A stretch of 64,000 nucleotides of DNA from Cognatishimia sp. F0-27 (GTDB lineage: Bacteria; Pseudomonadota; Alphaproteobacteria; Rhodobacterales; Rhodobacteraceae), in NCBI RefSeq assembly GCF_020667845.1, contig NZ_JAFMPQ010000006.1:62001-126000 (forward strand). Direction: 5' to 3'. This document shows, one piece after another, positions 22,409 through 41,105 of the stretch. The position numbers and the translations under genes were made by a program. Position 1 is the first letter of the stretch, and each line of letters begins with the position of its first letter. The notes under the pieces are model-generated. The model was not told the origin of the DNA. It was given only the letters and a program-made list of their open reading frames with translations, and did no database searches.

Positions 22409-22891
22409 GTCATCTTCCGATCGGTGGGAGCGATGGTGATCGCGGTTTGGGGAAGCCTTGGCCAGGCCCAGACGCTGGAGCATGCGCGTGACCTTATGGA
22501 GGCGCATCGGTTCGAAGAAGCCTATGCGGCGATGTGGCCGCTGGCGCGCTCCGGAAATGCGGATGCCGAGGAACTCATCGGTGTGATGTATGCCCTTGGC
22601 CTTGGTGTCGAACAGGATCATGTCCGGGCCTTCGACTGGTATCTGCGCTCTGCGATGAAAGGGCATCCCGGCGCGCAATCCGGGGTCGGGTGGTACTACG
22701 AGACCGGCTTGGGCCTGCCGACACCGGACCTCGTTCGGGCATTTCTGTGGTATCAACTCTCGACCATTGGCGGCGATCCGGACGCCGCCATTTCGGTCGA
22801 GGAGGTCATCAAGAAGATGACAAAAGACGAAATCGAGAAAGCGCATCAATTGGTCAATGACTATCGGGTGTGGATGTATCCATTTCGTTGA
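22367..22891 (+). CDS. Exported Sel1-repeat protein
   Basis: A 174-residue protein with a predicted signal peptide (hydrophobic core GAMVIAVWGSLGQAQ) and two Sel1-type repeats (AEELIGVMYALGLGVEQDH and AQSGVGWYYETGLGL plus flanking helices). Sel1 repeats form solenoids that bind other proteins. An alternative ATG at 22433 would give 153 residues with a shortened signal. The gene runs divergently from the dihaem protein, and with the longest starts their 5' ends overlap by about 40 bases, so at least one of the two starts is probably further in. Confidence 0.65.
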   Translation: MGVVLRAVSHSVHHVIFRSVGAMVIAVWGSLGQAQTLEHARDLMEAHRFEEAYAAMWPLARSGNADAEELIGVMYALGLGVEQDHVRAFDWYLRSAMKGHPGAQSGVGWYYETGLGLPTPDLVRAFLWYQLSTIGGDPDAAISVEEVIKKMTKDEIEKAHQLVNDYRVWMYPFR

Positions 22892-24708: not shown

Positions 24709-25767
24709 TCAGTTCAGGTCAGCCTCATAGCCCGAGGCGAGGTCGGCTTCCGCTTCCTCGACGGCTTGCATCAGCGCTTCGAAGATTTCCGGGCCGCCAT
24801 CGACATTGTCCTGGAACCACTGGAACACCGGCTGTGCGGCATCCCGGAACGCGGCCTTTTCATCCGGCGTCGGCACATAGAGATCACCCCCGCCCGCGAC
24901 AAAGTCTTGGTAAGCCTGGATCGACTTGCGCTTTGGCGAGGCAAATGTCGCCTGCTGAAGCGCCGCGAAGCCATCGACCACCACGCGGCGCATGTCCTCA
25001 TCCATGCCGAGGAACTTTTCGTTGTTCATCACCCAGATCGCGCCCATGTAGGCGTGCCCGTCGAGCGTCACGTATTGAAGGCCCGCATCGGGGAACTTCA
25101 TGCCCATGATGTCGGTGATGCCGTTCTTGGACCCGTCGACAACGCCGGTCTGGAAGGAGGTGAAGAGCTCCGGCCAGCTGATCGGGGTCGGGGCGGCGCC
25201 CATGGCCTTCACGACTTCCTGCGGCAGGTCTGCGACCACGGTGCGGATCTTGAGGCCTTCGAGGTCGGAGGGTTGCGTCACGCGGCGCTGCGTGTTGGCG
25301 AAGTTGCGCCATCCGCCGGTGTTGCCGATGGTCATGATGCGGATCGTGTCGCCGGAATCTTCAAGCGCCATCGCGCGCATCTTGCGGGTGAAATCGCCCG
25401 AAAGCACATGCTCCGCGACCCGGTCATCGGACATCAGGTAGGGCAGGTCGAGCACCTGCACATAGGGGAAGATGCCCGCCGCACCGCCCGAGGTGGTCAC
25501 AAACACGTCGATCGAGCCGTCAGCCACACCCTGGAGGCACTCCGCCCCCCCCGAGCAGAGCTGCGTGCCGATGAAGAGCTCGACGGCGATGCGCCCGTTC
25601 GAGGCATTCTCGACATGGTTCTTGAACACCACGAGACCGTCATAGTCCTCGTCGTTTTCGTTGGAGTTGGCTGTGGCACGGATCGTGATGTCCTGTGCCG
25701 CGGCGGACAGCGCGCTGCCTGCCAGGAGGGCGGCGGTGAGCGCCACCTTGGTAAGACCTTTGAGCAT
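24709..25767 (-). CDS. TRAP transporter substrate-binding protein (DctP family)
   Basis: A 352-residue periplasmic binding protein. Signal peptide at residues 1-24 (cleavage after SAAAQ). The mature protein shows the DctP pattern: GRIAVELFIGTQLCSGGAECLQGVADGSIDVF, the conserved NTGGWRNFANTQRRVTQPSDLEGLKIR with the ligand-binding arginine, and FTSFQTGVVDGSKNG. The second cysteine pair around CSGGAEC is less usual. It comes last in the operon, after dctQ and dctM. The ligand is unknown from sequence; operon context suggests a sulfonated sugar or other anionic compound whose charged group would face the conserved arginine. Confidence 0.88.
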   Translation of the reverse strand: MLKGLTKVALTAALLAGSALSAAAQDITIRATANSNENDEDYDGLVVFKNHVENASNGRIAVELFIGTQLCSGGAECLQGVADGSIDVFVTTSGGAAGIFPYVQVLDLPYLMSDDRVAEHVLSGDFTRKMRAMALEDSGDTIRIMTIGNTGGWRNFANTQRRVTQPSDLEGLKIRTVVADLPQEVVKAMGAAPTPISWPELFTSFQTGVVDGSKNGITDIMGMKFPDAGLQYVTLDGHAYMGAIWVMNNEKFLGMDEDMRRVVVDGFAALQQATFASPKRKSIQAYQDFVAGGGDLYVPTPDEKAAFRDAAQPVFQWFQDNVDGGPEIFEALMQAVEEAEADLASGYEADLN

Positions 25768-25889
25768 GAGTTTTCTCCCTGTTGCTTTCTTTGGTCCGGG
25801 TCGAGGCCCCGAAGGGCCCGGTGAAATCGGAGCGCGGCGGATGGCCCGTCGCGGCCCGGCAATGGTGAGCGGGTTCGCCCCGCGTCCTG

Positions 25890-27179
25890 TCAGTCCGCGA
25901 ACCCCGTCAGGCGCGGGATCGTCATGGAAATCTCGGGAACGAAGGTGATCAGGAAGATCACGAAAATCTCGACCGCGAGAAAGGGCAGGATGGCCCGTGA
26001 AATCGTTTCGACCCGTTCGCCTGACACGGAGCTTGCCACAAACAGCACGAGACCCATTGGCGGGGTCGCCAGCCCGACGGTGAGATTGACCGACATGATG
26101 ATCGCGAAATGGATCGGGTCGATACCGAGATCCACAAAGATCGGCCCGAGGATCGGTCCGAGGATGATGATCGCCGGGCCCGCGTCGAGGAACATGCCAA
26201 CAAGAAACAGCAGCAGGTTGATCAGGAACAGAAGGACCAGCGGGTTTTGGCTCAGCCCAAGGATGAAGTCGGCAAGGATCTGAGGCGCATAAGACAGCGA
26301 CACCACCGTTTTGAACGCCATTGCCGCGCCCACGAGCAAGAGCACCGTGGCCGAGGTCAGCGCCGCACGCATCAGCACATCGGGCAGATCGGAGACCTTG
26401 AGCGTGCGCAGAACAAAAAGGCCAATGATGATGGCGTAGGCCACGGCGACCGCGGCGGCCTCTGTCGGGGTAAAGACCCCCAGAAGGATGCCGCCGAGGA
26501 TGATGACCGGGGTCAGAAGCGGGAAGAACGCCTTCAGCGACGCCTGCCCGCGCTCGCCCCAGCTTGCCTTCTGGCGTGACGCCGGGAAGTCGTAGCGGTC
26601 GGCCATGATCTTGACCATGACCATCAGACCCACCCCAACCAGAATACCGGGGACGATGCCTGCAAGAAACAGCGCGGCGACGCTTTCACCCATGACATAG
26701 GCATAGATGATCATGATGCCCGAAGGCGGGATGATCGGGCCAATGACGGACGATGCCGCTGTGATCGCGGCGGCGAATTTGCGCGAATAGCCCTCTTTCT
26801 CCATGGCGGGGATCAGCATCGAGCCAAGCGCGGAGGTATCCGCCACGGCAGAGCCCGACAGCCCCGCGAACAGCATCGAGCTGAGCACGTTCACATGCGC
26901 CAGGCCGCCGCGAAAATGGCCCATCATCGCCTGCGAGAACTCTACGAGGCGCATGGTGATGCCGCCACGGTTCATCAGCTCGCCCGCCAACATGAAGAAC
27001 GGAATCGCCATGAGCGGGAAGCTTGCCATGCCGTTATAGACGTTGCGGTAGAGCAGGATCAGATCCCGCTCCTGACCATTGAGCCACAGCATGATGCCCG
27101 GTGCGGCCAGCATGCCGAAAAACACTGGCAAGCCGATCATCAGGAAGAGCAGGAACAGCGGTAAGAACCAAACCAACAT
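25890..27179 (-). CDS. TRAP transporter large permease (DctM)
   Basis: A 429-residue membrane protein with about 12 hydrophobic segments. Family landmarks are present: PLMAIPFFMLAGELMNRGGI, GLSGSAVADTSALGSMLIPAMEKEGYS, IGPIIPPSGIMIIYAY and GLATPPMGLVLF. It carries substrate across the inner membrane using the sodium gradient. The start lies 6 bases after the dctQ stop. A 122-base gap separates it from dctP. Confidence 0.92.
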   Translation of the reverse strand: MLVWFLPLFLLFLMIGLPVFFGMLAAPGIMLWLNGQERDLILLYRNVYNGMASFPLMAIPFFMLAGELMNRGGITMRLVEFSQAMMGHFRGGLAHVNVLSSMLFAGLSGSAVADTSALGSMLIPAMEKEGYSRKFAAAITAASSVIGPIIPPSGIMIIYAYVMGESVAALFLAGIVPGILVGVGLMVMVKIMADRYDFPASRQKASWGERGQASLKAFFPLLTPVIILGGILLGVFTPTEAAAVAVAYAIIIGLFVLRTLKVSDLPDVLMRAALTSATVLLLVGAAMAFKTVVSLSYAPQILADFILGLSQNPLVLLFLINLLLFLVGMFLDAGPAIIILGPILGPIFVDLGIDPIHFAIIMSVNLTVGLATPPMGLVLFVASSVSGERVETISRAILPFLAVEIFVIFLITFVPEISMTIPRLTGFAD

Positions 27180-27185
27180 CGCGCC

Positions 27186-27764
27186 TTACTCCCCTGTGAG
27201 TTCTTCATGGAGCAGTGGGCGCAACCGTTCGCCCCCGCCTGCAAGTGTCACCAGAGCCCGAAGGATCAGCTCGATATTGACCGCCAGCAGCAAGGCAAGC
27301 CCCGTGACAAGCGATGCGATCTGCCAGCTGTTGGGCATTTTTTCCCATCCGTCGGCAGTGGGATATTTCAACGACGCCGATTTGAACTTGCCGGCGAGGC
27401 TGGTCATTTCACCAAGGCCCATGTCGAGCCCGATCATCAGCACCAGCCCCGACAGGATCAGAAGCACCAGGGCGAGCAGCGCCGCGGCACGGGGTGCAAG
27501 CGCTGCGGTCACGATTTCCAGCGCAACGAAACCGCCTCGCCGATAAGCGGTGGGTGCAATGAGGCCGGTCATCCAGAGCATGAGGAAAATGGCGAGTTCT
27601 TCGGGCCAGGGCAGCGCGTTGCCGAGGATATATCGGAAAAACACCTGCAAGAGGATCGCAACGACCATGATCGCAATCGCAAGAGTTGCAATCCAGCGCC
27701 CGACCCGCAGGACAATGTCGAGAACAGACTGCAACGGGCGCAGAAGCGCCAGCAAAATGGCCAT
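27186..27764 (-). CDS. TRAP transporter small permease (DctQ)
   Basis: A 192-residue protein with four membrane segments and the family block NALPWPEELAIFLMLWMTGLIAPTAYRRGG. The ATG at 27764 follows GGGAGGGATC. It lies 58 bases after the flavin reductase gene, in the same direction, and belongs to the same operon. The loop between the third and fourth helix (FKSASLKYPTADGWEKMPNSWQ) is longer than in many DctQ proteins. Confidence 0.87.
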   Translation of the reverse strand: MAILLALLRPLQSVLDIVLRVGRWIATLAIAIMVVAILLQVFFRYILGNALPWPEELAIFLMLWMTGLIAPTAYRRGGFVALEIVTAALAPRAAALLALVLLILSGLVLMIGLDMGLGEMTSLAGKFKSASLKYPTADGWEKMPNSWQIASLVTGLALLLAVNIELILRALVTLAGGGERLRPLLHEELTGE

Positions 27765-27822
27765 AGGCCGATCCCTCCCTTTCGCGCGCCCGTTTCGCGT
27801 TTCTTGTCTTTTTGGGCGCGGT

Positions 27823-28359
27823 TTATGACGCGTCGGCAAACCCTCCGTATCGGCCTGCATGAAACAGAAGGGGCGCCCCTTCTGACGTGGTCACGCGCGT
27901 CACCCGTGCCACGATGATGGTATGGTCGCCTGCATCATGCAACGCTTCTTGTGCACATTCGAACCGCGCCAGAGATCCCGACAGCAACGGCACTCCGTCG
28001 GTGTTCGCCTCCCAGTCGCATTTGGCAAAAGCGCCCGACCCGTCTCGGGCGAAATTCACGCAAAGCTCTGATTGGTCTGCGCCGATGACGTGAATGCCGA
28101 ACCGTTTTGCCGCGATGAAGGGTCCGTAGCGCCGCGAAGCCTTTGCCGGGGACCACAGAACCAGTGGCGGGTCCAGTGATACAGAGGCAAAGCTGTTGGC
28201 GGTCATGCCAAGCGGGCCGTCCGGCGTCTGGCAGGTCACGATCGTGACGCCGGTGCCGAACTGTCCCAAAGCGTCCCGGAAGGCGCGAGAATGGTCGGCA
28301 TGGGCCGGATCGAAGCTGGGAAGGGTCGGAATCGACATGGTGGTCATGGTGTCCTTCAT
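27823..28359 (-). CDS. NAD(P)H:FMN reductase, candidate SmoA
   Basis: A 178-residue split-barrel flavin reductase (DIM6/NTAB group). The motifs FGTGVTIVTCQTPDGPLGMTANSF and SLDPPLVLWSPAKASRRYGPF bind FMN; GDHTIIVARVTRV lies near the C terminus. Such enzymes supply FMNH2 to a partner monooxygenase. The SsuD-like monooxygenase gene is two genes upstream in the same operon, so these two should form a two-component system. In the sulfo-SMO pathway the counterpart is SmoA. The start ATG at 28359 could be replaced by one a few codons on. Confidence 0.87.
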   Translation of the reverse strand: MKDTMTTMSIPTLPSFDPAHADHSRAFRDALGQFGTGVTIVTCQTPDGPLGMTANSFASVSLDPPLVLWSPAKASRRYGPFIAAKRFGIHVIGADQSELCVNFARDGSGAFAKCDWEANTDGVPLLSGSLARFECAQEALHDAGDHTIIVARVTRVTTSEGAPLLFHAGRYGGFADAS

Positions 28360-28377: not shown

Positions 28378-29265
28378 TCAGGCGACTTCCCGCCCGAGCG
28401 CGTCAGTGTAGAGCTCGAACCATGTCTGTCGATCCATAGAGACCTTTGCCGCGTCGCCGATCTTCTTGATGCGGTCGAGATTGTTTGTGCCCAACACCGG
28501 CAGGATGCGCGCAGGATGTGCCAGAAGCCAGGCAATCGCGACCGCTGCCTCGTCGACTCCCTGCTCGGAGGCGATGGCACTCAGGCGCTGGCGCAAAGCC
28601 GTGTTGCTGTCGCCGAAAAGCGCACCACCTCCGAGTGGGGACCACGCCATGATCGGGGTTCCCTTCATCTGGTGGAATGCCACGTCTCCATTCACCAGCG
28701 GTTCGTTATGCAGCAGCGACAGTTCGATCTGGTTGGTGACAAGCCGTGTATCCATCCCGGATTGCAGCAGTCGCCAGTCATGGGGTCGGAAGTTGGAGAC
28801 CCCCACCGCGCGGACCTTGCCCGAGGCAACGACCGCATCGAGCGCCGCGCCGGTTTCGCGGTGATCCATGAGCGGGTCCGGTCGGTGAATCAACAGAAGG
28901 TCGATATGGTCGATCTTCATCAGCCGAAGCGAGTGGTCCACCGATGCAAGGATGTGCGCGCGGGACGTATCGTAATGCTTGACGCGCGCGTCGCTGTAGC
29001 GCCCCGCGGGTGCCACGATATCGCATTTGGTGACGATCTCGATCTGGGCGCGGATGTCAGGCGTGAGTGCGTTGCCCATGACCTCCTCGGCTTCGTATCC
29101 GCCATAGATGTCGGCCTGGTCCATCGTGGTGATGCCCTGATCGACACAGGCGGCGATCTTGTTGCGGACATGCTCGGGCGAGGTGTCCTTGTCGTCGGAG
29201 AGGCGCCACATCCCGTAGACAAGGCGGCTCATGGTCAGGGCGTCGTTGAGGGGAATGCGGTCCAT
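28378..29265 (-). CDS. Aldo-keto reductase, candidate SmoB (6-oxo-glucose reductase)
   Basis: A 295-residue AKR of the YdhF-like group. The catalytic tetrad can be placed at D49, Y54, K80 and H127 (TTMDQADIYGGY, IVTKCDI, LLIHRPD). The NADPH-binding end PVLGTNNLDRIKK is present. It lies between the monooxygenase and the flavin reductase genes, 85 and 18 bases from them. In sulfo-SMO clusters an AKR, SmoB, reduces the 6-oxo-glucose released by the monooxygenase to glucose. That role is inferred from the gene set; AKRs are broad in substrate and sequence alone does not prove it. Confidence 0.8.
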   Translation of the reverse strand: MDRIPLNDALTMSRLVYGMWRLSDDKDTSPEHVRNKIAACVDQGITTMDQADIYGGYEAEEVMGNALTPDIRAQIEIVTKCDIVAPAGRYSDARVKHYDTSRAHILASVDHSLRLMKIDHIDLLLIHRPDPLMDHRETGAALDAVVASGKVRAVGVSNFRPHDWRLLQSGMDTRLVTNQIELSLLHNEPLVNGDVAFHQMKGTPIMAWSPLGGGALFGDSNTALRQRLSAIASEQGVDEAAVAIAWLLAHPARILPVLGTNNLDRIKKIGDAAKVSMDRQTWFELYTDALGREVA

Positions 29266-29349: not shown

Positions 29350-30504
29350 TCAGCGGCGCGGGCCGGCGCCAAGCGGTGTTTGCGGGGGTGATGAAGGCAC
29401 GCGGCCATAGGCTTCGGGCAGCGAGCAGGTCTTCATCTGCGGCAGCACCCGGCTGCCGAAGTGCCGGCATTCGTCGATATGCGGATAGCCCGACAGGATG
29501 AAAGCCCGGATGCCCATCTTCTGGTATTGCTCCAGTTCGGAGAGCACCTGGTCGGTTGAGCCGACCAGCGCCGCGCCACAGCCGGAACGCGCCCGGCCGA
29601 TCCCGGTCCAGAGATGCGGTTCGATGAAGCCTTCGAGGTCGGCCTTCTCGCGGTTCGCGGCCTGGTGAGAAACGCCAAGACTCCCCGCATCGAGCGCGCG
29701 TTCGCGGATCGCCGTGCCTTGCGCATCGTCGAGCTTGGAGGTGATGTGCTCGGCCCATTCGCGCGCTTCGGCCTCGGTGTCGCGCACGATCACATGGACG
29801 CGCAGCCCGTAATCGAGCGTGCGGTCATGGGTTTCCGCCACCGCATGCACGGCTTTCATCCGCTCGGCCAGCACATCGCGGGTTTCCGGCCACATCAGGT
29901 ACACGTCGCAATGTTGGCCGCAGAGTTCGAGAGCGGCGGGCGAATAGCCACCGAAATAGAGCAGCGGTCCACCCGTTTGGTAGGGTTTCGCGGGATCGGT
30001 CGTCAGCCCCTCGAAATCGTAGACCTCGCCCTTGTAGGTGATCTCGTCCCGCGTCCATGCCTGTTTCAGGATCTCCACCACCTCGCGCGAACGCTGGTAG
30101 CGGTAGCCGCTTTCGGCCTTTTCGCCGGGGAAGTCGGAAGAGATGATGTTGACGGTCAGGCGCCCCTTCATCATGTGATCGAGCGTCGCAATGGTCCGTG
30201 CAAGCATGATCGGCTGCATCTCGCCGCAGCGGACCGCGGCCAGCATGTTGATGCGCTCGGTGATCGCCGCGCCTCCGGCCACGAAACTCAGGGTGTCTTG
30301 CCCGACCTGATAGGATGACGGGCACAGGATGTTGCGGAAGCCTTGGGATTCCGCCTCCTTGAGAATTGCCGAGCAATGCTCCCACGAAGACCGCAGGTGC
30401 CCTTCGGGATGGCCGAGATATTCGTAGTCATCCGAGCACAGCGCGGCAAACCACGACACCTCTGCAGCGTCGAGATCGGGGGATGTTATGGGCACGATGG
30501 TCAT
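29350..30504 (-). CDS. SsuD-like FMNH2-dependent monooxygenase, candidate SmoC
   Basis: A 384-residue bacterial-luciferase-like (LLM) monooxygenase closest to the alkanesulfonate monooxygenase branch, as shown by AAVRCGEMQPIMLARTIATLDHMMKGRLTVNIISSD cut into known blocks and by the C-terminal FILSGYPHIDECRHFGSRVLP. The enzyme class uses FMNH2 and O2 to cut a C-S bond, giving an aldehyde and sulfite. The start at 30504 (MTIVPITSPDLDAAEVSWF) is the first ATG after which similarity begins. It is the first gene of the operon with an aldo-keto reductase, flavin reductase and TRAP transporter; the set suggests sulfoquinovose as substrate. Confidence 0.85.
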   Translation of the reverse strand: MTIVPITSPDLDAAEVSWFAALCSDDYEYLGHPEGHLRSSWEHCSAILKEAESQGFRNILCPSSYQVGQDTLSFVAGGAAITERINMLAAVRCGEMQPIMLARTIATLDHMMKGRLTVNIISSDFPGEKAESGYRYQRSREVVEILKQAWTRDEITYKGEVYDFEGLTTDPAKPYQTGGPLLYFGGYSPAALELCGQHCDVYLMWPETRDVLAERMKAVHAVAETHDRTLDYGLRVHVIVRDTEAEAREWAEHITSKLDDAQGTAIRERALDAGSLGVSHQAANREKADLEGFIEPHLWTGIGRARSGCGAALVGSTDQVLSELEQYQKMGIRAFILSGYPHIDECRHFGSRVLPQMKTCSLPEAYGRVPSSPPQTPLGAGPRR

Positions 30505-30585
30505 GGCGGGCCTTTGTGTGGAGCATGCGCAAGAAGCGGAAAAGGTGCCTGCATGGGGCACATTTTTTATTGCGTAGCACCGTAT

Positions 30586-30599
30586 TTGATGTAGATCAA
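30586..30599. promoter_or_regulatory. Candidate GntR operator between the divergent operons
   Basis: TTGAT-GTAG-ATCAA, a perfect 5-bp inverted repeat with 4-base spacer, sits in an AT-rich island 82 bases upstream of the monooxygenase start, with a further ATCAA half-site at 30606-30610. The divergent GntR/UTRA gene starts 190 bases away. Position and symmetry fit a shared operator. Confidence 0.5.
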
Positions 30600-30789
30600 T
30601 AGTGTATCAATTTGGGGCGCGCGATGTCTGAAGGCCATGTTCCGGACCGACCGTTTTTGCAATGCCGGGCGGGTTTCCTCCCGCGGCAAGGCGGTGTTCT
30701 GGGTGCGGGGCCTTTTTTCGGGGGCGGCGTCTTTTTGGTCGTCCGTGATTGCGCGCCGGTGACCGCGTGCTCTGGCCGGACCGCGAGTC

Positions 30790-31524
30790 ATGGTTGAGCC
30801 CGGCGCGGGAGGTGGTCGTGCGGGGCACGATGCCTATGCGCTGCCGCTTCATGTTCAGATCTCGGAAATGCTGATCCGTGACATCAATGCGGGTCGTCTG
30901 AGCGATGGTGAGCGTCTGCCGCCGGAGCGCAATATGGCGCGAAATCTTGGCATTTCGGTGGGCACATTGCGCCGCGCTTTGGCGGACCTTGCCGAAAAGG
31001 GCATGCTCGAACGCATCCAGGGCTCGGGCAATTACATCCGCGCCACGCAGGACGTGAAGTCGGTCTACGCGTTTTTCCGGGTCGAGTTGCTGGAGGGCGG
31101 TGGCCTGCCGCAGGCGGAGCTTCTGTCGGTCGATCGCGTCGCCAAACCCGATGCCTTGCCGGAGTTCGGCACATCCGGGGAGGCGCATCGCATCCGGCGC
31201 TTGCGGCGTCTTGGCGGCGTCCCGGCGGTTCTCGAGGAAATCTGGCTCGACGGCGATTACGCAGACAGGCTCGATGACGGGGCGCTATCGGAGTCGCTGT
31301 ACCTGTTTTACCGAGAAACTCTGGGGCTTTGGATCAGTCGGGCCGAGGACCGGTTGGGGATGGGTTTTGTGCCAGATTGGGCACCGGAGACTTTTGGCCC
31401 GCGCCCGGGAGAGGCGCGTGTGATGGCGACGCGGATCGGCTGGGCGCAGGACGGTGCGCGCGCCGAGGTTTCGCGCAACTGGATTGATACGGACGTGGCC
31501 ACCTATGTGGCGCGGATCGGATAG
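30790..31524 (+). CDS. GntR-family (HutC/UTRA) regulator, candidate SmoD
   Basis: A 244-residue regulator. Residues 15-80 are the GntR winged helix (PLHVQISEMLIRDINAGRL, then LPPERNMARNLGISVGTLRRAL). The remainder is a UTRA effector domain (about 90-240) that binds small sugar-like or amino-acid-like ligands. It is divergent from the monooxygenase-TRAP operon and co-directional with the Gfo/Idh gene 92 bases downstream. The sulfo-SMO regulator SmoD also belongs to the GntR family, and a sulfosugar would fit a UTRA pocket. Confidence 0.88.
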   Translation: MVEPGAGGGRAGHDAYALPLHVQISEMLIRDINAGRLSDGERLPPERNMARNLGISVGTLRRALADLAEKGMLERIQGSGNYIRATQDVKSVYAFFRVELLEGGGLPQAELLSVDRVAKPDALPEFGTSGEAHRIRRLRRLGGVPAVLEEIWLDGDYADRLDDGALSESLYLFYRETLGLWISRAEDRLGMGFVPDWAPETFGPRPGEARVMATRIGWAQDGARAEVSRNWIDTDVATYVARIG

Positions 31525-31616: not shown

Positions 31617-32756
31617 ATGGACGGTCACGAGACGGACAAGAGCGGCCGCGCCGCGGGGCAGGCAGGAACGAAGATCATCCAGTATGGCGTGATCGGCTGC
31701 GGCATGATGGGCCAGGAGCATCTGCGCAACATCGCCCTTTTGCCGGGCGCGCGGGTGGCGGCAATCTATGAGCCGAACGAGATCATGGCGAATGCAGCCA
31801 AGGCGATTGCGCCCAATGCGCGGCTTTGCCCGTCACTGGACGAATTGCTGCGCGACGAGACCCTCGATTGTCTTCTGGTGGTGAGTCCGAACCACCTGCA
31901 TGTGGATCAGCTCGAGGAGATTGCCCGGCTGCGTCCCTTGCCGCTGCTGATGGAAAAGCCGTTGTACACGGCGCCGGAACAGGAAGCCCGGCTTGCGGCG
32001 CTGCGCGAAAGCTATCCGGCACCGGTCTGGGTTGCCATGGAGTATCGCTACATGCCGCCCATTGCGACGTTCCTCGAAGAGCTGGAGCGCGCGACCGAGC
32101 GGGTGACGATGTTCACCATCCGAGAGCACCGTTTTCCCTTCCTGCCCAAGGTCGGCGACTGGAACCGTTTCAACCGCAACACGGGCGGCACGCTGGTTGA
32201 GAAATGCTGTCACTTTTTCGACCTGATGCGGCTCGTGCTCAAATCCGATCCGGTTCGGGTCATGGCGAGCGCCGGGCAGGAGGTGAACCATCTCGACGAG
32301 GAATATGGCGGCGAGCGCCCTGATATCTGGGACACCGGTTATGTTCTGGTGGACTTCGCCTCTGGCGCACGGGCGATGCTGGAGCTTTGCATGTATGCCG
32401 AGGGGGCGCGCTATCAGGAGGAGCTCTCTGCCGTCGGGCCGCGCGGCAAGATCGAGGCCTATGTGCCGGGGCCCGGTCGGTTCTGGCCAACGCATCTGGG
32501 GCTGCCGCCGACCGCGCAGGTGATTGTGTCGCCCCGTCAGCCCAAGGGGCCGCAAACGGTCGAGATTCCCGTCGATCCGACTTTGCTGGAGGCGGGGGAC
32601 CATAACGGCTCCACCTTCTACCAGCATCAACGCTTCCTTGAGGTCGTGCGCAGCGGCGGCACGCCGGAGGTCACGCTCGAGGATGGCGCCTGGGCTGTCC
32701 GGATCGGCCTTGCAGCCCAGCAAAGCGCACGCGCCGGTGAAGCGGTGCGGCTTTGA
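31617..32756 (+). CDS. Gfo/Idh/MocA-fold protein, candidate NAD+-dependent sulfoquinovosidase
   Basis: A 379-residue protein. The NAD-binding GCGMMG loop is at residues 27-32 and the EKP motif with its catalytic lysine at 113-115. A His (H199) lies in GGTLVEKCCHFFDLMR, where this superfamily has its active-site histidine. Family members are sugar dehydrogenases or NAD+-dependent glycosidases that oxidise C3 for a moment (GH109, GH188 and relatives). The neighbours contain no classical sulfoquinovosidase, and NAD+-dependent sulfoquinovosidases are known from Roseobacter sulfoquinovose clusters, so this is the likeliest function. A sugar dehydrogenase is the alternative. The start at 31617 follows AGGACAGG. 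Confidence 0.72.
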   Translation: MDGHETDKSGRAAGQAGTKIIQYGVIGCGMMGQEHLRNIALLPGARVAAIYEPNEIMANAAKAIAPNARLCPSLDELLRDETLDCLLVVSPNHLHVDQLEEIARLRPLPLLMEKPLYTAPEQEARLAALRESYPAPVWVAMEYRYMPPIATFLEELERATERVTMFTIREHRFPFLPKVGDWNRFNRNTGGTLVEKCCHFFDLMRLVLKSDPVRVMASAGQEVNHLDEEYGGERPDIWDTGYVLVDFASGARAMLELCMYAEGARYQEELSAVGPRGKIEAYVPGPGRFWPTHLGLPPTAQVIVSPRQPKGPQTVEIPVDPTLLEAGDHNGSTFYQHQRFLEVVRSGGTPEVTLEDGAWAVRIGLAAQQSARAGEAVRL

Positions 32757-33246: not shown

Positions 33247-36200
33247 ATGAGCGCGATTGATTTCGTGATCCGTACCAGTGCGGGTTCACTTCAGAGTGGG
33301 TCCGTTGGTGGCGAGGATCAGAATTTTGTAATTCCGGCCGGGACCGGTAACGACATTTCTCTCAACATCGCGCAGGTCAACCTGCGCGGGTATGATCGAG
33401 CGGGAGAAGATCTGCTGATCACACTGGCCGATGGCCGGGTCATCGTGCTGCAGGGCTACTTCGCGATGGGTCCGGAAGGTGTCGCCAACGACCTGTATAT
33501 CAGCTCCGACGGCCTGCTTTTCGAAGTGGATCTCACCGGCGTCGACAGCGGCGCGATCTTTGCCCAGTATTCGCTTGCGGATGGAACCGGCGACAGCGGA
33601 AAATTCGGCGCCTTTGGCAAGCCGACCACGGGCGGGCCTCTGACCTTCAATGACGATCCGCATGTTCTCATGGGGGAGCCGGTCGACGATGTGTCGATGT
33701 TCGGCGGTGGTCTTCTTGGGCTTGGCGGTCTGGGTGCCGGAGCGGCGGGGCTTGCCGCAACCGGCGCGGTCATCGCGGGCATCGGAAGCGGCGGCGGCGA
33801 TGGCGGCGGCGGCGGAAACGGCTCTGGTGCCGGCAATAACGGCGGCTTCGGCTGGCGTGCGCCGACAGTGAACAACCCCGACGCGGATGACCGCATCGGT
33901 GGGGGTGACGACCCCTCCTGGACGATTTCCGGCACCGCGAATGAAGGCTCGGTCGTCGAGATGGAGATCGACGGCAGAACCCATACGGTCACGGCTGGCG
34001 AGGATAACACCTGGGAATTCGTGCTGATTGGCGATAATTTTCCCTCGGATGGCGATTATGACGATGTGGGCATCACGGTCACCGATCCAGATGGCACGGT
34101 GACGGATCTGACGGGGCCTTCGGTTGAAATCGATACGATCCCCCCGGTGCTCGAAGTGTATGGCGGCACGGTGTCTGTCGGAGATTTGTTCAACGCCGAG
34201 AGCTATACGAGCGGTGTGACGGTGTCCGGCACGTCTGAAATCGGCGCAACCGTGACGATCGTCATCGACACCTATACCGATACGGTCGTCGTGGGCGATG
34301 ATGGCACATGGTCCTTCACCATCAGCTCGGACGTGCTGATCGAAGGCGAGTATACCAGCGAGATCCAGATCACGGCCTCGGATGATTTCGGGAACACAAC
34401 GGTCGTCTCTGATCAGGTGCAAATCGACACGGTGCCGCATCCGATCACCATCGACGCGGTGACCGAGGACAATATCGTTGCCGCAGTGGAATCCAACAGC
34501 GGGTTCGAGATCACGGGCACGTCCACCGCGGGCGCCATCATTGTTGTGACACTGGGTGACGTGCTGACACAGGACGTGCTTGTGGCCGCAGACGGCACCT
34601 GGTCGCTCACCGTGGACGCCAACCTTCTGGTCTCCGGCGAGTACAACCTCGACATCACGGCGTCGACCACTGACATGGCGGGCAACCCGTCTTCGGTAAC
34701 ATCGACCTTCGCCGTGGACACCGAGGCCACCGTTTCGTTGACAAACGCGCCGTTGACCGGAGACGACATGATCTCGGCCACCGAGCTTGATGGCGGTCTC
34801 GTGCTGGAAGGCACCACGGAGATGGGATCCACCGTCACCGTGACCATTGAGGGTGTCACGCGCGAAGCGACAGTCAGCGCCGATGGCACATGGACCGTGA
34901 CCTTCGAAGCGACCGCGCTGAGCCAGGGCACCTATGCGACAAGCGCTGCGATCACGGCGATCGATGCGGTCGGTAACAGCACCACGATCACGCACAGCTT
35001 CTCCGTCGACACCGAGACAACGCTGACGATCACCGATGACGGTGGCGTGATCAATGCGGATATGCGCAACGCGGGCGTCGAGATCTCCGGGACCGGCGAA
35101 GCGGGCGCCACCGTGACACTGAATGTCGGCGATCAGAGCTTTGATGCCACTGTGAGCGCGTCTGGTACTTGGTCGGTCATGCTCCCGGCGGGCGCTTTGC
35201 CGGATGGCGAAACCAGCCAGTCCATGACAGCCGTTTCCACCGATGCGTATGGCAACACGGCCACGGCCAGCCACGTTGTTCAGATCGACACAATCACCGA
35301 TGTCACAGTAGACGCCGGCGATGGCGGCGGCGACAACGTCATCAACGCCGCCGAGCGGGCCGGGGGTCTGATGCTGGACGGCACGGCAGAACCCGGCGCC
35401 ACCGTCGAGGTGACGCTTGGCGATACAACGGTCTCCGCAACGGTCACCTCCACGGGCACATGGACCGCGTTTTTCGCGGCCGGTGCCCTGCCGGACGGCG
35501 AGGCGATGGCCGAGGTGGTTGCAGTGTCCACCGATGCCGCAGGCAACAGCGCGACCGCAACCGCGATGCTCGACATCGACACGATCGTGCGCAACTTCGC
35601 CGTAACCAGCACTCCGGGCGGCACCGATGGCGTGGTCAACGCAGAAGAGGCCGCCGCTGGCCTGACGCTCACCGGCACGGTCGAACAGGGTGGCTCCGTG
35701 CGCCTTGAGCTTGACGGCATCTCGGTGGATGCCGACGTGGCCGCAGATGGCGCGTGGACCGCGACATTCAGCGCGGATCAGCTGCCGAGCGGCGAACGCA
35801 GCGTGACGCTCACCGCTCATGCGACCGATGCGGCGGGCAACACCGACAGCCTGACCCAGTCGGTGATGATCGATACCGATGCCGGCATCCTGACCATCGA
35901 CCCGGAGCCCGTCGAAACCGATGACGTGGTCAATGCGGCCGAAGCCTCTGACGGGGTGGTTCTGACGGGCACGTCGAACCCGGGTCAGCTTGTCGATGTG
36001 ACCATGAACGGTGTCACGCATACGGTGCAGACAAACAGCGCGGGCCGCTGGGAGGCGCCTTTCGCGGCGTCCGAAATCGCACCCGGAACCTACACGGCCG
36101 ATATCTCGGCCACGATCACGGACAGCGCGGGCAACACCCTTCTGCGCACCGACAGTGTCGCCGTCGATACCGAGGTTCTGAATTTCGCGGTCTCCGGCGA

Positions 36201-37344
36201 TCCGGTCACGGCAGACAACGTGGTCAACGCGGTCGAACGGATGGGCGGCGTCACGCTGTCCGGCACCACCGAAGCCGGCGGCAGCACGGTCGAGCTTGTC
36301 ATCGGCAGCGAGGTGATCACCGCTACAGTCAACGCCGATGGCGACTGGAGCGCCGTCATCCCGGCATCCGCGATCCCGGAGGGCACCGGTGACGTGTCCG
36401 TGGCGGTCAAGACAGTCGACCCGGCCGGCAACCCTGCGGAAACGACGGCAGTGCTGGCCTACGATACGGAAGTCGAGATCCTCACGGGCAACCCGACAGG
36501 TGGCGACGACGGCGTGATCAACGCGGCAGAAGCCGCCGCCGGTCTCGTTCTGACGGGAGATGTGGAAGTCGGTTCTGCCGTTTCGGTCACTTTCGGCGGC
36601 ATGGCCCATGTGGCGAGTGTTGCCGCAGATGGAAGCTGGAGCGTCAATATCCCGCCGGAGGCGATCCCGGCTGGCGATCACGCACCGGAAGCGATCATCG
36701 AAGCCACCGACGCGGCAGGCAACGTGCGTGAAATCGTGCAACCCATCGCCATCGACACCGAAGCGCCAGGCACTCCGGCCTGGGTCGGCTACGGGCGGAA
36801 TACCGAAGGGGTCGACGAGATCCGCACCGAGATCACCGACGATACGGTCTATATCGGCCACGTGGTCGGCACGGACGCCGCGCCGTCCATCACGGAAGTG
36901 GCGTTGGAAAACTCGGTCGATATCGGCGCGCTCGATACCACGTATCACACCTTTGCAGAGGATGTGCCGGACGGCTCGCACCTTGTCCTGACCGCGACCG
37001 ACGCGGCGGGCAATACCTCGGGTGCCTATCTCGTGACAGACGATCCGGCGGGGTCCGAAGTCGAGATGAGTGACCAGTTGGCCTCGGCCCTGTCGTTGTT
37101 CCAGATCGAGACCATCGACCTGCAATTCGCGGAAGACAGCCATCTGACAATCACCGAAGCGCAGATCGCGGCGCTGTCGTCGAACAGCGACACCCTGATC
37201 GTCGAAGGCGGATCGGATGACAGCGTGACCATCACGGGCGCGACGCCACAAGGCTCCAACGGAGCGGGCTACAACGCCTTCTCGCTTGGGGATGCGACGG
37301 TTCTGATCGATGACGACATCACGCAGGTGAACCCGGTCGTGTAA
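33247..37344 (+). CDS. BapA-like surface adhesin with Ig-like repeats
   Basis: A 1365-residue very acidic protein. Residues 1-125 match the BapA prefix-like domain (NFVIPAGTGNDISLNIAQVN, then LQGYFAMGPEGVAND). A Gly-rich hydrophobic segment (about 155-205) follows. From about 224 to 1175 there are ten Ig-like repeats of about 95 residues, each with GTWS/GTWT-like beta turns and ending DTE or DTI. The C-terminal 190 residues contain a further domain and end in ATVLIDDDITQVNPVV, as in type I secretion substrates. There is no Sec signal and no RTX nonapeptide. The secretion genes follow directly. Probable role: cell-surface attachment and biofilm. Confidence 0.85.
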   Translation: MSAIDFVIRTSAGSLQSGSVGGEDQNFVIPAGTGNDISLNIAQVNLRGYDRAGEDLLITLADGRVIVLQGYFAMGPEGVANDLYISSDGLLFEVDLTGVDSGAIFAQYSLADGTGDSGKFGAFGKPTTGGPLTFNDDPHVLMGEPVDDVSMFGGGLLGLGGLGAGAAGLAATGAVIAGIGSGGGDGGGGGNGSGAGNNGGFGWRAPTVNNPDADDRIGGGDDPSWTISGTANEGSVVEMEIDGRTHTVTAGEDNTWEFVLIGDNFPSDGDYDDVGITVTDPDGTVTDLTGPSVEIDTIPPVLEVYGGTVSVGDLFNAESYTSGVTVSGTSEIGATVTIVIDTYTDTVVVGDDGTWSFTISSDVLIEGEYTSEIQITASDDFGNTTVVSDQVQIDTVPHPITIDAVTEDNIVAAVESNSGFEITGTSTAGAIIVVTLGDVLTQDVLVAADGTWSLTVDANLLVSGEYNLDITASTTDMAGNPSSVTSTFAVDTEATVSLTNAPLTGDDMISATELDGGLVLEGTTEMGSTVTVTIEGVTREATVSADGTWTVTFEATALSQGTYATSAAITAIDAVGNSTTITHSFSVDTETTLTITDDGGVINADMRNAGVEISGTGEAGATVTLNVGDQSFDATVSASGTWSVMLPAGALPDGETSQSMTAVSTDAYGNTATASHVVQIDTITDVTVDAGDGGGDNVINAAERAGGLMLDGTAEPGATVEVTLGDTTVSATVTSTGTWTAFFAAGALPDGEAMAEVVAVSTDAAGNSATATAMLDIDTIVRNFAVTSTPGGTDGVVNAEEAAAGLTLTGTVEQGGSVRLELDGISVDADVAADGAWTATFSADQLPSGERSVTLTAHATDAAGNTDSLTQSVMIDTDAGILTIDPEPVETDDVVNAAEASDGVVLTGTSNPGQLVDVTMNGVTHTVQTNSAGRWEAPFAASEIAPGTYTADISATITDSAGNTLLRTDSVAVDTEVLNFAVSGDPVTADNVVNAVERMGGVTLSGTTEAGGSTVELVIGSEVITATVNADGDWSAVIPASAIPEGTGDVSVAVKTVDPAGNPAETTAVLAYDTEVEILTGNPTGGDDGVINAAEAAAGLVLTGDVEVGSAVSVTFGGMAHVASVAADGSWSVNIPPEAIPAGDHAPEAIIEATDAAGNVREIVQPIAIDTEAPGTPAWVGYGRNTEGVDEIRTEITDDTVYIGHVVGTDAAPSITEVALENSVDIGALDTTYHTFAEDVPDGSHLVLTATDAAGNTSGAYLVTDDPAGSEVEMSDQLASALSLFQIETIDLQFAEDSHLTITEAQIAALSSNSDTLIVEGGSDDSVTITGATPQGSNGAGYNAFSLGDATVLIDDDITQVNPVV
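33919..36770 (+). repeat. About ten tandem Ig-like repeat units inside the adhesin
   Basis: Units of roughly 285-300 bases encode VNAAE..GLVLTGT-like starts, a central ADGTWS turn and TDAAGN..DTE ends. Later units (6-10) are more alike than earlier ones, which suggests expansion at the 3' part. Protein-level repetition is clear; DNA identity between neighbours is moderate. Confidence 0.8.
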
Positions 37345-37361
37345 CCGCACAGAAGACTGAT

Positions 37362-37389
37362 CGGCCCGATGCAATTCCGTGTCGGGCCG
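37362..37389 (+). terminator. Hairpin between adhesin and secretion genes
   Basis: An 8-bp stem (CGGCCCGA/TCGGGCCG) with 12-base loop, 17 bases after the adhesin stop, without T-run. It may be a partial terminator or protect the adhesin mRNA, allowing more adhesin than transporter. Confidence 0.4.
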
Positions 37390-37458
37390 GGCTCGGAGCC
37401 GCCGGTCAAGAGCGGCCCGAAAAGACACGAAAACAAGACCCTGAAGCGGGGCGGTGTA

Positions 37459-38832
37459 ATGAAGGCAGGCAGGACTGCATGGGGCGTGGTGGCAATACTG
37501 GCACTGCTGCCCGGCTGCATGAAGACCAGCGGACTGACTGAGTCCGCCGCGCGCTTCCTTGACGGCGGCAACCCTGCGGATGCAGCCGCACAAGAGACAG
37601 CTTCCCCCGATACCGCAGTGGATCCGGTCGTGGCCCGCGCGTCCGGCGGTGCACCGGTAAACGACCACAACCTGCGCAACGCGGGCGATGTCTCGCCGGT
37701 GATCGCCGCCCTGCAACACCGCGACAGCGCCATTGCGCCGGGCACGCCCTATGCCAAGGTGGCCGATGCCGTCATGGCCTCCGATACGCGTGTCGCGGCG
37801 GCGGAATTGCGTGTTGCGCAGCTGCGGGCGGAGGCGGCAAAGCGAAACTGGCTGCCGCGGATCGGGCCGCGGATCTCTCTCAACTCGCTGGGGGATTTCG
37901 TCACTGACCTGTTCATTCAACAGGTGCTGTTCGACAATGGCCGCAAAAAGGCCGAACGCGATCTGGCCAAGGCCAATGTCGAGCTTGCAGCGGTGGCGCT
38001 GGTCGAAGACGGAAACAAGCGGGTCTATGAGGCACTCGATCTTTACCTGACAGCACAACAGCAAACCGCGCTGGCCCGTCATCTCTCCGGGGCGGGCGCA
38101 GAGATGGCGCAGTTCGAACATGTGATGCGGCGACGGGTCGAGGGCGGCGTTTCAGACATGTCTGACCTCAACATCCTGCGTCAGAAAACCGCCTCCATCC
38201 GCGCACGCATGACCGAGGCACAGGAAGCGGCACAGACCGCGATGGCGGAATTGAACGCCATGGCGGGGTGGTCGCTCAACGATGTCAGCGGTCTTGGCGG
38301 GCTCAGCGGACCGACGGGCGCACGCGCGCTCGGCGTTCTGCGCGCAGAGGTCGAGCGCGATATCCATCTGGCCGAGGCGCGGATCGCACGCGCCAGCCAT
38401 TTGCCCGGTCTGACCGCAACGGCTTCGACGGATGGCACATCGGGTCTTGAAGTCACCACGGACCAGCTGTTCGGCTTCGGAACCGGGGCGGCGCTGTCGG
38501 CCCTGGAGGCGGGAAAAGAGGCCGCCGAACGCAAGATCGGTGAGGCTGCGGAGCGCGCCGCACGGCAGCGGGCCTCTGCGGAGCGCCAGCAAACCGCTTT
38601 CCAACGGCAAGCCAAGGAGGCCAGCGTGCTGCGCAAGCAGGCAAAGGCCAATCTCGACCTCTTCCGCCGCCAATACGAGGGTGGGCAGCGTCAGGTGATG
38701 GATGTGGTTGGCACCTATGAGACCTACGCCACGGCGTTGGAGACCGAAATCGAATTGAAATACAAGGCCGCCCGCGCTGCTCTGAGCCTCGCTCGGATCG
38801 AGGGCAGCCTCGCGGAGGGGGCAAGGATTTGA
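37459..38832 (+). CDS. TolC-family outer membrane lipoprotein of a type I secretion system
   Basis: A 457-residue outer membrane factor. The lipobox LLPGC puts the acylated cysteine at residue 20. Long helical hairpins rich in Ala, Glu and Arg follow, with NWLPRIGPRISLNSLG in the barrel part and GQRQVMDVVGTYETYATALETEIE near the end. It forms the outer membrane channel for the adhesin. The start at 37459 is chosen because the lipobox comes at the right distance; the frame is open upstream. Its stop overlaps the next start (ATTTGA). Confidence 0.82.
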   Translation: MKAGRTAWGVVAILALLPGCMKTSGLTESAARFLDGGNPADAAAQETASPDTAVDPVVARASGGAPVNDHNLRNAGDVSPVIAALQHRDSAIAPGTPYAKVADAVMASDTRVAAAELRVAQLRAEAAKRNWLPRIGPRISLNSLGDFVTDLFIQQVLFDNGRKKAERDLAKANVELAAVALVEDGNKRVYEALDLYLTAQQQTALARHLSGAGAEMAQFEHVMRRRVEGGVSDMSDLNILRQKTASIRARMTEAQEAAQTAMAELNAMAGWSLNDVSGLGGLSGPTGARALGVLRAEVERDIHLAEARIARASHLPGLTATASTDGTSGLEVTTDQLFGFGTGAALSALEAGKEAAERKIGEAAERAARQRASAERQQTAFQRQAKEASVLRKQAKANLDLFRRQYEGGQRQVMDVVGTYETYATALETEIELKYKAARAALSLARIEGSLAEGARI

Positions 38833-41105
38833 GCGACGCGGGTGGGATCAACGGATTGTTCGGGCAGAACATAAAGGCGCAGCTGCGTGGCGGTCTGGCA
38901 GTGGCCGGCCAGAAGGGCCGAGCCATCCTGCGCGCTGTCCCCGCGCCAACTCAGGCACCGGCCAACAAGCCCGGTCGTGTCTCCAGCGAATTGCAGGGCC
39001 GTATCGCGCGGCGGGTCGATGCCATTTCGGTGCTTGCCGGGCGCCTTGGTGTGACCGCGCGCAAGGCGGATGTTTCCGAGGCGCTTCTCAAGCATATGGA
39101 CCATGATGAGCGGATCGGCATCGACGCGCTGCGTGCCGCATGTGAGGCCGCGGGTCTCAACGCCGAGATCGAATCCGCCGACCTGCTGCGTCCGGACCAC
39201 TGGCCGGCGCTGGCCCTCATGCGCGGTGGACAGGCCGTCCTCGTGCTGTCGCAGAACACCGACGGTGTGACCGTCTATGATGCGGAAGCGCCAGACCGGC
39301 GCACCGATGTGCCGATGAAGGAATTCGGCCCCTATTTTGCAGGCGCTCTTGTGCGTGTCGAGGCACCGATCGCGGTGCTGTCCGACAGCCACACCGATGC
39401 GCAGGCAGAGGGGCATTGGTTCTGGGGGTCTTTTGCGAAATTCCGTCGGCATTTCGCGGAGGTGGCGCTTGGTTCCTTTGTTGCGAACCTTCTTGCAGTC
39501 TCGGTCGCGCTGTTTTCCCTGCAGGTCTATGACCGGGTGATCCCGCATCAATCGGAGGCAACGCTGTGGGTGCTGGCCATTGGCGCGGCTCTGGCGCTGA
39601 TGCTCGAAGGGTTTCTCAAGATTGCACGCGCACAGCTTCTTGACGGGACAGGCCGTCAGATCGAGCTGGGCGTGCAGCAGACCTTGATGAACAGACTGCT
39701 TGGCATGCGGTCCGACCTCAAGGATCGCTCGCCCTCGCAGCTTTTTGCCGCGATGCGCGAATTCGGGTCGGTCCGCGAATTCTTCACGGCCTCCACGGTG
39801 GGGGCGCTGGCGGACATTCCGTTCATCTTCCTGTTTCTTGCGTTGGTCTGGTCAATCGCGGGCTCGGTTGTCTGGGTGCTGGTGGCCGGGGCCGTTCTGA
39901 TGGTGATCCCCGGCTTCCTGTTGCAGAAGAAGATGATCCGTCTCACGCAGGAGATGCAGGGCGCCTCGACCCGGCAATCGCGCCTTCTTCAGGAGACCGT
40001 GACCGAGTTGGACACGATCAAGACGCAACGCGCCGAGGACCGTTTCGCCCGGCTCTGGGAAGAGCTCACAACCGTGCAGGCGGTCAAGGCTTCGTCGCAG
40101 CGCAAGCTCGCGGCCGCGTTGATGTTCTGGAGCCAGGGCGTGCAGCAAGCGACCTATGTGGGCGCCGTGATCATGGGGACGTATCTCGTCTTTGCCGGGG
40201 AGTTCACCGTCGGGTCGATCATCGCGGTGGGCATCCTGACATCGCGCACGCTGGCGCCGCTGACACAGCTTTCCGGCATCATGGCGCGCTGGGGCAACGT
40301 CAAATCCGCGCTTGATGCGCTGGACGGGATTGCGCAGGTCGAACAGGATCGGTCCGCCGCGCGCACGTATTTGCGGCGTGACCGGCTCGAAGGGCATTAC
40401 GCCCTGCGCGATGTGACCTTCCGATACGACCCTGAGGGCGCAGCCGTGCTCGACCTGTCGGGTCTTGCGATCAAGCCGGGACAGGTTCTTGCGGTCCTTG
40501 GATCCAACGGATCCGGCAAATCGACCTTCCTCAAGCTGCTGTCGGGGCTCTACACGCCGTCCACGGGGCAGATCCTTCTCGACGGGGCGGAGATGGCCCA
40601 GATCGAACCGCGGGATTTGCGCCGTTCCATCGGCTATCTGGGGCAGGACGTCCGGCTGTTCCATGGGACCCTGCGCGAGAACCTCAACCTGAGCCTGTTG
40701 GAGCGTGACGACGACCGGATCTTCGAGGCGCTCGATTTTGCCGGTCTCGGCCAGTTCGTGAAGGGCCATCCCAAGGGGCTCGACCTGCCAATCTCGGATG
40801 GCGGCGAGGGTTTGTCGGTCGGACAGAGGCAGTCCATCGGATGGGCACGCCTGTGGCTGCAGGATCCCGATATCTGTCTTCTCGACGAGCCGACCGCGGC
40901 GCTTGACCAGACCTTGGAAAAGACACTCATGTCGCGCCTGGAGCATTGGCTGAAGGGGCGCACTGCGGTGATTGCAACGCACCGCGTGCCGATCCTTGCA
41001 TTGGCGGATCGGACGATGATCCTTGCCAATGGCCGTATGGCTGTCGACGGGCCGCGCGATCAGGTCCTTGACCATTTGCGCGGACGGGGAACAGGGACAC
41101 GGTAA
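38829..41105 (+). CDS. Type I secretion ABC transporter (LapB-like)
   Basis: A 758-residue fused permease-ATPase. It starts at a TTG that overlaps the tolC stop, with GAGGGGG upstream. Residues 60-185 form a C39-like domain without the catalytic cysteine, typical of transporters for large adhesins. The membrane part spans about 200-470. The ATPase shows Walker A GSNGSGKST (near 560), signature LSVGQRQS and Walker B ICLLDEPTA. It recognises the adhesin C terminus and drives export through the TolC-like channel. Confidence 0.9.
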   Translation: MSDAGGINGLFGQNIKAQLRGGLAVAGQKGRAILRAVPAPTQAPANKPGRVSSELQGRIARRVDAISVLAGRLGVTARKADVSEALLKHMDHDERIGIDALRAACEAAGLNAEIESADLLRPDHWPALALMRGGQAVLVLSQNTDGVTVYDAEAPDRRTDVPMKEFGPYFAGALVRVEAPIAVLSDSHTDAQAEGHWFWGSFAKFRRHFAEVALGSFVANLLAVSVALFSLQVYDRVIPHQSEATLWVLAIGAALALMLEGFLKIARAQLLDGTGRQIELGVQQTLMNRLLGMRSDLKDRSPSQLFAAMREFGSVREFFTASTVGALADIPFIFLFLALVWSIAGSVVWVLVAGAVLMVIPGFLLQKKMIRLTQEMQGASTRQSRLLQETVTELDTIKTQRAEDRFARLWEELTTVQAVKASSQRKLAAALMFWSQGVQQATYVGAVIMGTYLVFAGEFTVGSIIAVGILTSRTLAPLTQLSGIMARWGNVKSALDALDGIAQVEQDRSAARTYLRRDRLEGHYALRDVTFRYDPEGAAVLDLSGLAIKPGQVLAVLGSNGSGKSTFLKLLSGLYTPSTGQILLDGAEMAQIEPRDLRRSIGYLGQDVRLFHGTLRENLNLSLLERDDDRIFEALDFAGLGQFVKGHPKGLDLPISDGGEGLSVGQRQSIGWARLWLQDPDICLLDEPTAALDQTLEKTLMSRLEHWLKGRTAVIATHRVPILALADRTMILANGRMAVDGPRDQVLDHLRGRGTGTR

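Follow-up and report, generated by a model that had tools for sequence, protein, structure and literature searches.

The window (the whole stretch of DNA that was analysed, 64,000 nucleotides from Cognatishimia sp. F0-27) contains a predicted sulfoquinovose utilization locus in which sqgA, an open frame of 379 amino acids at 31617-32756 on the forward strand, is accompanied by a gene for a regulator of the GntR/UTRA type, three genes related to the sulfo-SMO pathway and the three genes of a TRAP transporter (Table 1). The regulatory gene is located 92 bases upstream of sqgA and is co-directional with it, in agreement with the sequence-only reading, which had placed sqgA next to the regulator of the sulfonate locus; these two plus-strand genes are divergent from the minus-strand monooxygenase/TRAP block.

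Table 1. Features of the sqgA locus and the predicted substrate contacts of SqgA
Feature	Position	Strand	Basis or remark
dctP: TRAP solute-binding protein, candidate sulfoquinovose/sulfoquinovosyl glycerol binder	24709..25767	-	PF03480, 3.2e-52
dctM: TRAP large permease	25890..27179	-	TIGR00786, 428.8 bits, over the cut-off of 268.45
dctQ: TRAP small permease	27186..27860	-	PF04290, 2.9e-18; start uncertain, overlaps smoA as called
smoA: flavin reductase, predicted to supply reduced flavin to SmoC	27823..28359	-	Flavin_Reduct, 9.4e-40; adjoins smoB in most smo loci
smoB: aldo-keto reductase, predicted to convert 6-dehydroglucose to glucose	28378..29265	-	Aldo_ket_red, 6.8e-52; matches to 7bby/7bbz
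smoC: predicted FMNH2-dependent sulfoquinovose monooxygenase	29350..30561	-	Bac_luciferase, 1.6e-51; matches to 7olf and 7oh2
Candidate operator TTGATGTAGATCAATAGTGTATCAA	30586..30610		between smoC and the GntR/UTRA gene; recurs in relatives
GntR/UTRA (HutC-type) regulator	30790..31524	+	PF00392, 2.4e-16; PF07702, 6.9e-19; 69 of the 89 fetched loci around sqgA have a homologue
sqgA: predicted GH188 NAD+-dependent sulfoquinovosidase, Gfo/Idh/MocA fold	31617..32756	+	PDB phmmer, active-site residues, structure Z of 52.6 to 8zn9
C3-OH contacts	SqgA K114, H199		alignment to ArSqgA
C2-OH contact	SqgA Y143		alignment to ArSqgA
C1-OH contact	SqgA H329		alignment to ArSqgA
C4-OH contact	SqgA E195		alignment to ArSqgA
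Sulfonate site	SqgA R172, L176, K178		alignment to ArSqgA

The motifs from which the sqgA product had been read as a sulfoquinovosidase are all in place, namely the GCGMMG loop (residues 27-32), the EKP motif with K114 and GGTLVEKCCHFFD with H199, both of the latter correctly numbered. An alternative GTG codon upstream, at 31560, would extend the product to 398 amino acids. In most relatives of sqgA the alignment begins at about residue 8-23 (an exception is L190, which aligns from residue 1), and the ATG has an AAGGA-like ribosome site in front of it, so that a start at 31617 is plausible; in the structure model, residues 1-17 are poorly supported (pLDDT below 50). The relatives of SmoC mostly align from about residue 14-20, so that the true start of smoC probably lies near 30507.

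A phmmer search of SqgA against all PDB chains identifies 8zn9 as the best match (539 bits, E of 3.8e-161; 234 of 369 aligned residues, or 63%, identical), followed by the two founding enzymes of the GH188 family, ArSqgA from Arthrobacter sp. U41 (8qc3, 355 bits, 4.1e-105; 171 of 361 aligned residues, or 47%, identical) and FlSqgA from Flavobacterium sp. K172 (8qc2, 351 bits, 6.2e-104). The best other Gfo/Idh protein in the PDB reaches 63 bits, about 290 bits below the sulfoquinovosidases. The predicted structure (mean pLDDT of 88.3) gives the same order, with a Z score of 52.6 to 8zn9 (rmsd 1.5 A over 361 residues), 48.8-49.9 to the five 8qc entries, and 36.3 to the next structure. The title of the 8zn9 entry is "A vast marine sulfonate-based carbon cycle fueled by novel sulfoquinovosidases", and its name in the sequence file is "Oxidoreductase, putative"; the paper behind this entry is probably Ma et al. 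2025, as cited in the accessible part of PMC12890257. SqgA shares with 8zn9 the fold and every mapped active-site and sulfonate residue, whereas the 37% of aligned residues that differ include no mapped site residue; with ArSqgA and FlSqgA (8qc2, 8qc3, 8qc5, 8qc6, 8qc8) it shares the fold, the site and about 45-48% identity. Best matches to inositol or glucose-fructose dehydrogenases, with no sulfonate-binding residues, would have spoken against the sequence-only reading; the opposite is observed, the sulfoquinovosidases being the best matches and the sulfonate triad being present.

In ArSqgA, the contacts of sulfoquinovose are Lys107, Tyr136, Glu189, His193 and His321, together with Arg166, Leu170 (through the backbone) and Lys172 for the sulfonate group, as given in the accessible text of PMC10755693. 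All eight are matched in the alignment with SqgA (Table 1), and all eight are retained in 88 of the 88 readable relatives among the 89 rows compared; the unreadable row is that of L103 (genome G184), where a relative of sqgA, interrupted by a TGA stop inside the frame, lies beside homologues of smoABC and the regulator. For the glutamate at the position of GH109 Tyr226, the same text gives Glu163, whereas with the numbering offset derived from the eight contacts, ArSqgA has Val at 163 and Glu at 164; the corresponding residues of SqgA are R169 and E170, so a glutamate is present, but the published number does not match the offset. The structure model, proposed earlier as a check of the C3-oxidation site and the sulfonate pocket, bears out a GH188-like fold; its sulfonate loop (residues 175-181) has a pLDDT below 50, and the geometry of the pocket therefore rests on the alignment to the crystal structures. 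The leucine at position 176 places SqgA outside the Tyr variants described in the accessible part of PMC11465081.

For FlSqgA and ArSqgA, the available portion of PMC10755693 reports NAD+ dependence, deuterium incorporation at C2 and complexes with sulfoquinovose. By analogy, NAD+ in the Rossmann domain of SqgA would stay bound and accept a hydride from C3 of the sulfoquinovoside, with K114 and H199 contacting the C3 hydroxyl, while Y143 would shift the C2 proton and the 6-sulfonate would be held by R172, the backbone amide of L176 and K178. The aglycone (glycerol in the case of sulfoquinovosyl glycerol) would then depart with the help of H329, water would add to the enone, and re-reduction of the C3 ketone by the same NADH would yield free sulfoquinovose with zero net redox change. 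Further down the predicted pathway, SmoC, using flavin from SmoA, would cleave the C-S bond to give sulfite and 6-dehydroglucose, which SmoB would convert to glucose.

The neighboring genes are compatible with this route. A search of the PDB with SmoC detects 7olf (1.5e-203) and 7oh2 (4.4e-202), with the next best match at 9.1e-54, and SmoB similarly matches 7bby/7bbz (about 1e-124; next best, 9.8e-65); the PDB names of these entries are generic, and we take them to be SmoC and SmoB, respectively, of the published pathway. For SmoA, no close SmoA-specific relative is found among the solved structures. The window cluster thus encodes SmoB and SmoC, named through these presumed PDB identities, plus the flavin reductase SmoA. 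The sulfoquinovosidase of Agrobacterium belongs to GH31; the sequence-only reading had noted no GH31-type sulfoquinovosidase, and no GH31 domain (PF01055) is found in the whole genome (the same search is positive in 6 of 14 control genomes). Hence sqgA lies in a sulfoquinovose cluster, adjoining smoABC, that lacks a GH31 sulfoquinovosidase. The joint presence of SmoB and SmoC is what defines a sulfo-SMO-positive genome in the accessible part of PMC13372026, and an importer is not part of that definition. According to the available text of PMC10755693, GH188 is near-universal in Roseobacter sulfo-SMO clusters, where GH31 is absent, in line with the sequence-only reading, which placed this family in such clusters, Roseobacters included. 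SqgA is thus typical of this recently published family and of the setting described for it, with no essential difference seen from the Roseobacter sulfo-SMO clusters described there (including those of Dinoroseobacter shibae, A8LIZ7, and Phaeobacter inhibens). Arthrobacter sp. AK01, in which the family was discovered according to the same text, has it in a sulfo-EMP cluster, whereas SqgA is found in a sulfo-SMO cluster. The sulfo-SMO (sulfo-ASMO) cluster of Agrobacterium tumefaciens, as described in the accessible part of PMC9594981, shares the flavin reductase, the monooxygenase and the aldo-keto reductase with the window cluster, but combines them with a sulfoquinovosyl-glycerol ABC transporter and a characterised sulfoquinovosidase, in place of which the window cluster has the TRAP transporter and the GH188 protein.

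Taken together, sequence, structure and context make it almost certain that 31617-32756 encodes SqgA, a GH188 enzyme predicted to act as an NAD+-dependent sulfoquinovosidase; the sequence-only reading to this effect is supported by the identity of the best solved relatives, the conserved sulfonate triad and the sulfo-SMO context without GH31. An ordinary Gfo/Idh dehydrogenase of the inositol, glucose-fructose or 3-dehydro-sugar-forming kind, with net NAD(P)H turnover and no glycosidase activity, would have an identical fold, and levoglucosan and inositol dehydrogenases reach Z scores of about 34-36 against the SqgA model. The best NCBIfam match is indeed inositol 2-dehydrogenase (TIGR04380, 2.6e-26), but its 92.3 bits fall below the curated cut-off of 355, the sulfoquinovosidases are ahead by about 290 bits or more and by 12 to 16 Z units, and the triad R172/L176/K178 is present in all 88 readable relatives; such an enzyme is thus very improbable. 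Inositol and other ordinary dehydrogenases, considered as candidates for SqgA, were discarded on the sequence and structure scores. Even less credible is a GH109-type NAD+-dependent N-acetylgalactosaminidase, notwithstanding the oxidoreductive chemistry in common and the histidine positions that ArSqgA shares with AmGH109A in the available text of PMC10755693: SqgA has the residues of the sulfonate loop, and no chain named GH109 occurs among the 37 PDB sequences matched at E<=1e-3. Nor do such chains occur among the matches in two further lists (the best 50 in each), an absence that in itself excludes nothing, membership of GH109 being judged by sequence together with the longer loop of AmGH109A (228-242).

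The specificity within GH188 leaves somewhat more latitude. The actual substrate could be another sulfosugar glycoside, such as beta-linked sulfoquinovose of glycans or a different 6-sulfo-sugar, with sulfoquinovosyl glycerol as a side substrate: FlSqgA cleaves both alpha- and beta-sulfoquinovosides (PMC10755693, accessible part), SqgA is 47% identical to ArSqgA, and the relatives in smoC loci are 60-83% identical to SqgA of the window, compared with 44-54% for those in L106-L122 that lack smoC. Against this stand the eight unchanged sulfoquinovose contacts, the adjoining cluster for degradation of sulfoquinovose itself, and the 63% identity to a protein whose PDB entry bears a sulfoquinovosidase title, so that a different preferred substrate appears improbable, and sulfoquinovosyl glycerol is retained as the predicted one.

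Of 198 genomes examined in the family, 105 (the present one included) encode a homologue of sqgA at E<=1e-60, which is more than chance; these genomes were taken one per genus, yet are related, so P values for gene co-occurrence overstate the evidence. Stretches of up to 18.5 kb around sqgA were fetched from 89 of the 104 other genomes. Both smoB and smoC are found in 66 of these 89 loci (42 with the TRAP genes and 24 without), smoC with no smoB over the threshold in 2, and no smoC in 21, of which 15 have the TRAP genes. Across the 198 genomes, smoC (E<=1e-120) occurs in 88, and 87 of these also have sqgA. The nearest sqgA loci among the best 80 of 587 named ones, a list that may omit the present genome and its closest kin, belong to Rhodobacteraceae (Marivita, Boseongicola, Silicimonas), with rhizobia lower down.

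An isomerase homologous to that of locus L107 occurs together with dctP in 13 smoC-free sqgA loci, 12 of which also encode a LacD-like aldolase, and this type of isomerase is found in none of the 68 smoC loci at E<=1e-20. The L107 isomerase matches NF048012, sulfoquinovose isomerase, with E of 2.9e-77 and 260 bits, below the cut-off of 700, and the locus also contains genes for a tagatose-bisphosphate-type aldolase, a succinate-semialdehyde-type dehydrogenase and a DeoR regulator; accordingly, L107 looks like a sulfo-EMP-type cluster. In four further loci (L049, L104, L119 and L122), the fetched stretch contains sqgA with neither smoC nor genes of the sulfo-EMP type, and all four genomes (G151, G112, G146 and G090, respectively) carry smoC elsewhere. 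Two other loci, L062 and L070, have the regulator and the TRAP genes, with no smoC in the fetched stretch.

The same type of DctPQM accompanies sqgA in the sulfo-SMO clusters and in the smoC-free clusters of the sulfo-EMP type, and DctP is 68-87% identical to that of the window across both settings. Of 72 genomes with dctP (E<=1e-120) among the 198, 70 also have sqgA. Where smoC is absent (110 genomes), sqgA and dctP are concordant in 108: both are present in 17 and neither in 91, sqgA alone occurs in 1 and dctP alone in 1. Because the TRAP transporter is found across two pathways, its substrate should be what these have in common, so that DctPQM most likely imports sulfoquinovose or its glycoside. 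A sulfonate ligand has a precedent in this superfamily, the isethionate-binding TRAP protein 8t9t being the sixth among the solved relatives of DctP (3.9e-28). It is rather unlikely, though less so than any of the other readings of SqgA, that the transporter handles another sulfonate or an acid and is a neighbor by chance or through shared regulation only. Compatible with this are the presence of the isethionate-binding protein among the solved relatives of DctP, though not as the closest one, the absence of dctP at E<=1e-120 from 34 of the 88 smoC-bearing genomes, which disfavors a universal role of the TRAP transporter, and the case of G048, where the TRAP genes adjoin a flavin reductase in a genome with neither smoC nor sqgA; the association with sqgA in two different degradation pathways and the ratio of 17 genomes together to 2 apart among those negative for smoC argue against it and for uptake of sulfoquinovose or its glycoside. 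In the G048 locus (L205, 4113-8778), the genes for the same type of TRAP transporter have neighbors that encode a SmoA-like flavin reductase and a cupin protein, and the genome has no sqgA or smoC at the cut-offs used; either the link to sulfoquinovose has an exception here, or the locus serves a different sulfonate route. In G094, smoC, the regulator and the TRAP genes are present and sqgA is absent at E<=1e-60.

The Agrobacterium-type ABC importer of sulfoquinovosyl glycerol is not in the window cluster, which has DctPQM instead; the own genome contains 16 general PF01547 matches, none of them on the contig of the window. In L044, a smoC locus lacking TRAP genes, the part scanned (5 open frames) reveals no clear importer, and an ABC ATPase is encoded about 4 kb from smoA. 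The uptake systems described in the accessible part of PMC12421959 are ABC transporters, both for sulfo-ED and for the characterised SQ-binding proteins. A text search of the main body of PMC10755693 for "transporter" gives no occurrence, and no description of a TRAP importer for sulfoquinovose is found among the papers listed in a literature search whose reach did not include the three most relevant ones.

The spacer between smoC and the regulatory gene contains a motif, TTGATN4ATCAA, which is exact in 27 of 66 such spacers (the window plus 65 loci in which both genes are present and divergent, extended by 60 bases into each match) and occurs with at most one mismatch in 38 of 66; shuffling the bases of each spacer 20 times yields 8 of 1320 sequences within one mismatch. 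In the whole window, the motif is observed once, with 0.02 occurrences expected. Its extended form, TTGATNNNNATCAATNNTNNATCAA, is exact at 30586-30610 and, at up to 3 mismatches, is detected in 57 of 69 regulator-bearing loci, compared with 1 of 20 regulator-lacking loci; in 56 of the 69 its distance from the 5' end of the match to gntR or smoC is at most 250 bases. One shuffle for each of the 89 loci gives 1 match. In the own genome, this 25-bp element is the sole match at up to 2 mismatches, and a reversed control pattern gives one match. Among the best 80 of 587 named loci, with 3 kb flanks, the element is found anywhere in 66, the regulator in 78 and smoC in 75. Where a locus is rearranged, the element has moved along with the genes: in L052 one copy lies before smoC and another at the regulator, and in L083 the element precedes smoC, some 6.7 kb from the regulatory gene. 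The element is missing, at up to 3 mismatches, from 12 of the 69 regulator-bearing loci; in L078 it occurs solely at another place in the fetched stretch, and L203 (G151), which contains the regulator, smoC and the TRAP genes, has none. In the same genome, the sqgA of L049 (8412-9619) is located apart from the smo/TRAP cluster L203, with a weak copy of the element (3 mismatches) directly upstream.

On these observations, the regulator of the cluster is most likely the GntR/UTRA protein, acting via the 25-bp element, to which it would bind. The accessible text of PMC10755693 names no operator. The wider proposal, that DctPQM (24709-27860) is a TRAP system for the uptake of sulfoquinovose or sulfoquinovosyl glycerol, that it forms with sqgA a module common to the sulfo-SMO and sulfo-EMP-type routes of the family, and that in the sulfo-SMO clusters it is co-controlled with sqgA and smoABC by the GntR/UTRA regulator via the conserved TTGATNNNNATCAATNNTNNATCAA, appears moderately probable. 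Should it hold, the TRAP genes and the operator would provide a genomic marker of sulfoquinovose uptake that is independent of the degradation pathway. GH188 in Roseobacter sulfo-SMO clusters being already published, the less familiar parts of the locus are the TRAP importer and the candidate operator; with respect to SqgA, the present genome is one more from a bacterium that should be able to open the remains of plant and algal sulfolipids by itself, beyond using free sulfoquinovose, a point made in the available text of PMC10755693.

Two other regions of the window contain genes of different character. Downstream of sqgA, the plus-strand region 33247-42286 encodes a repeat protein of 1365 residues that contains ten adhesin stretches of the Ca_tandemer type and, after it, an outer-membrane efflux protein, an ABC exporter and a HlyD-type adaptor; this is probably an adhesin together with a dedicated type I secretion system. 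On the minus strand, 20969-22849 encodes a di-haem cytochrome c peroxidase (MauG-like) protein.
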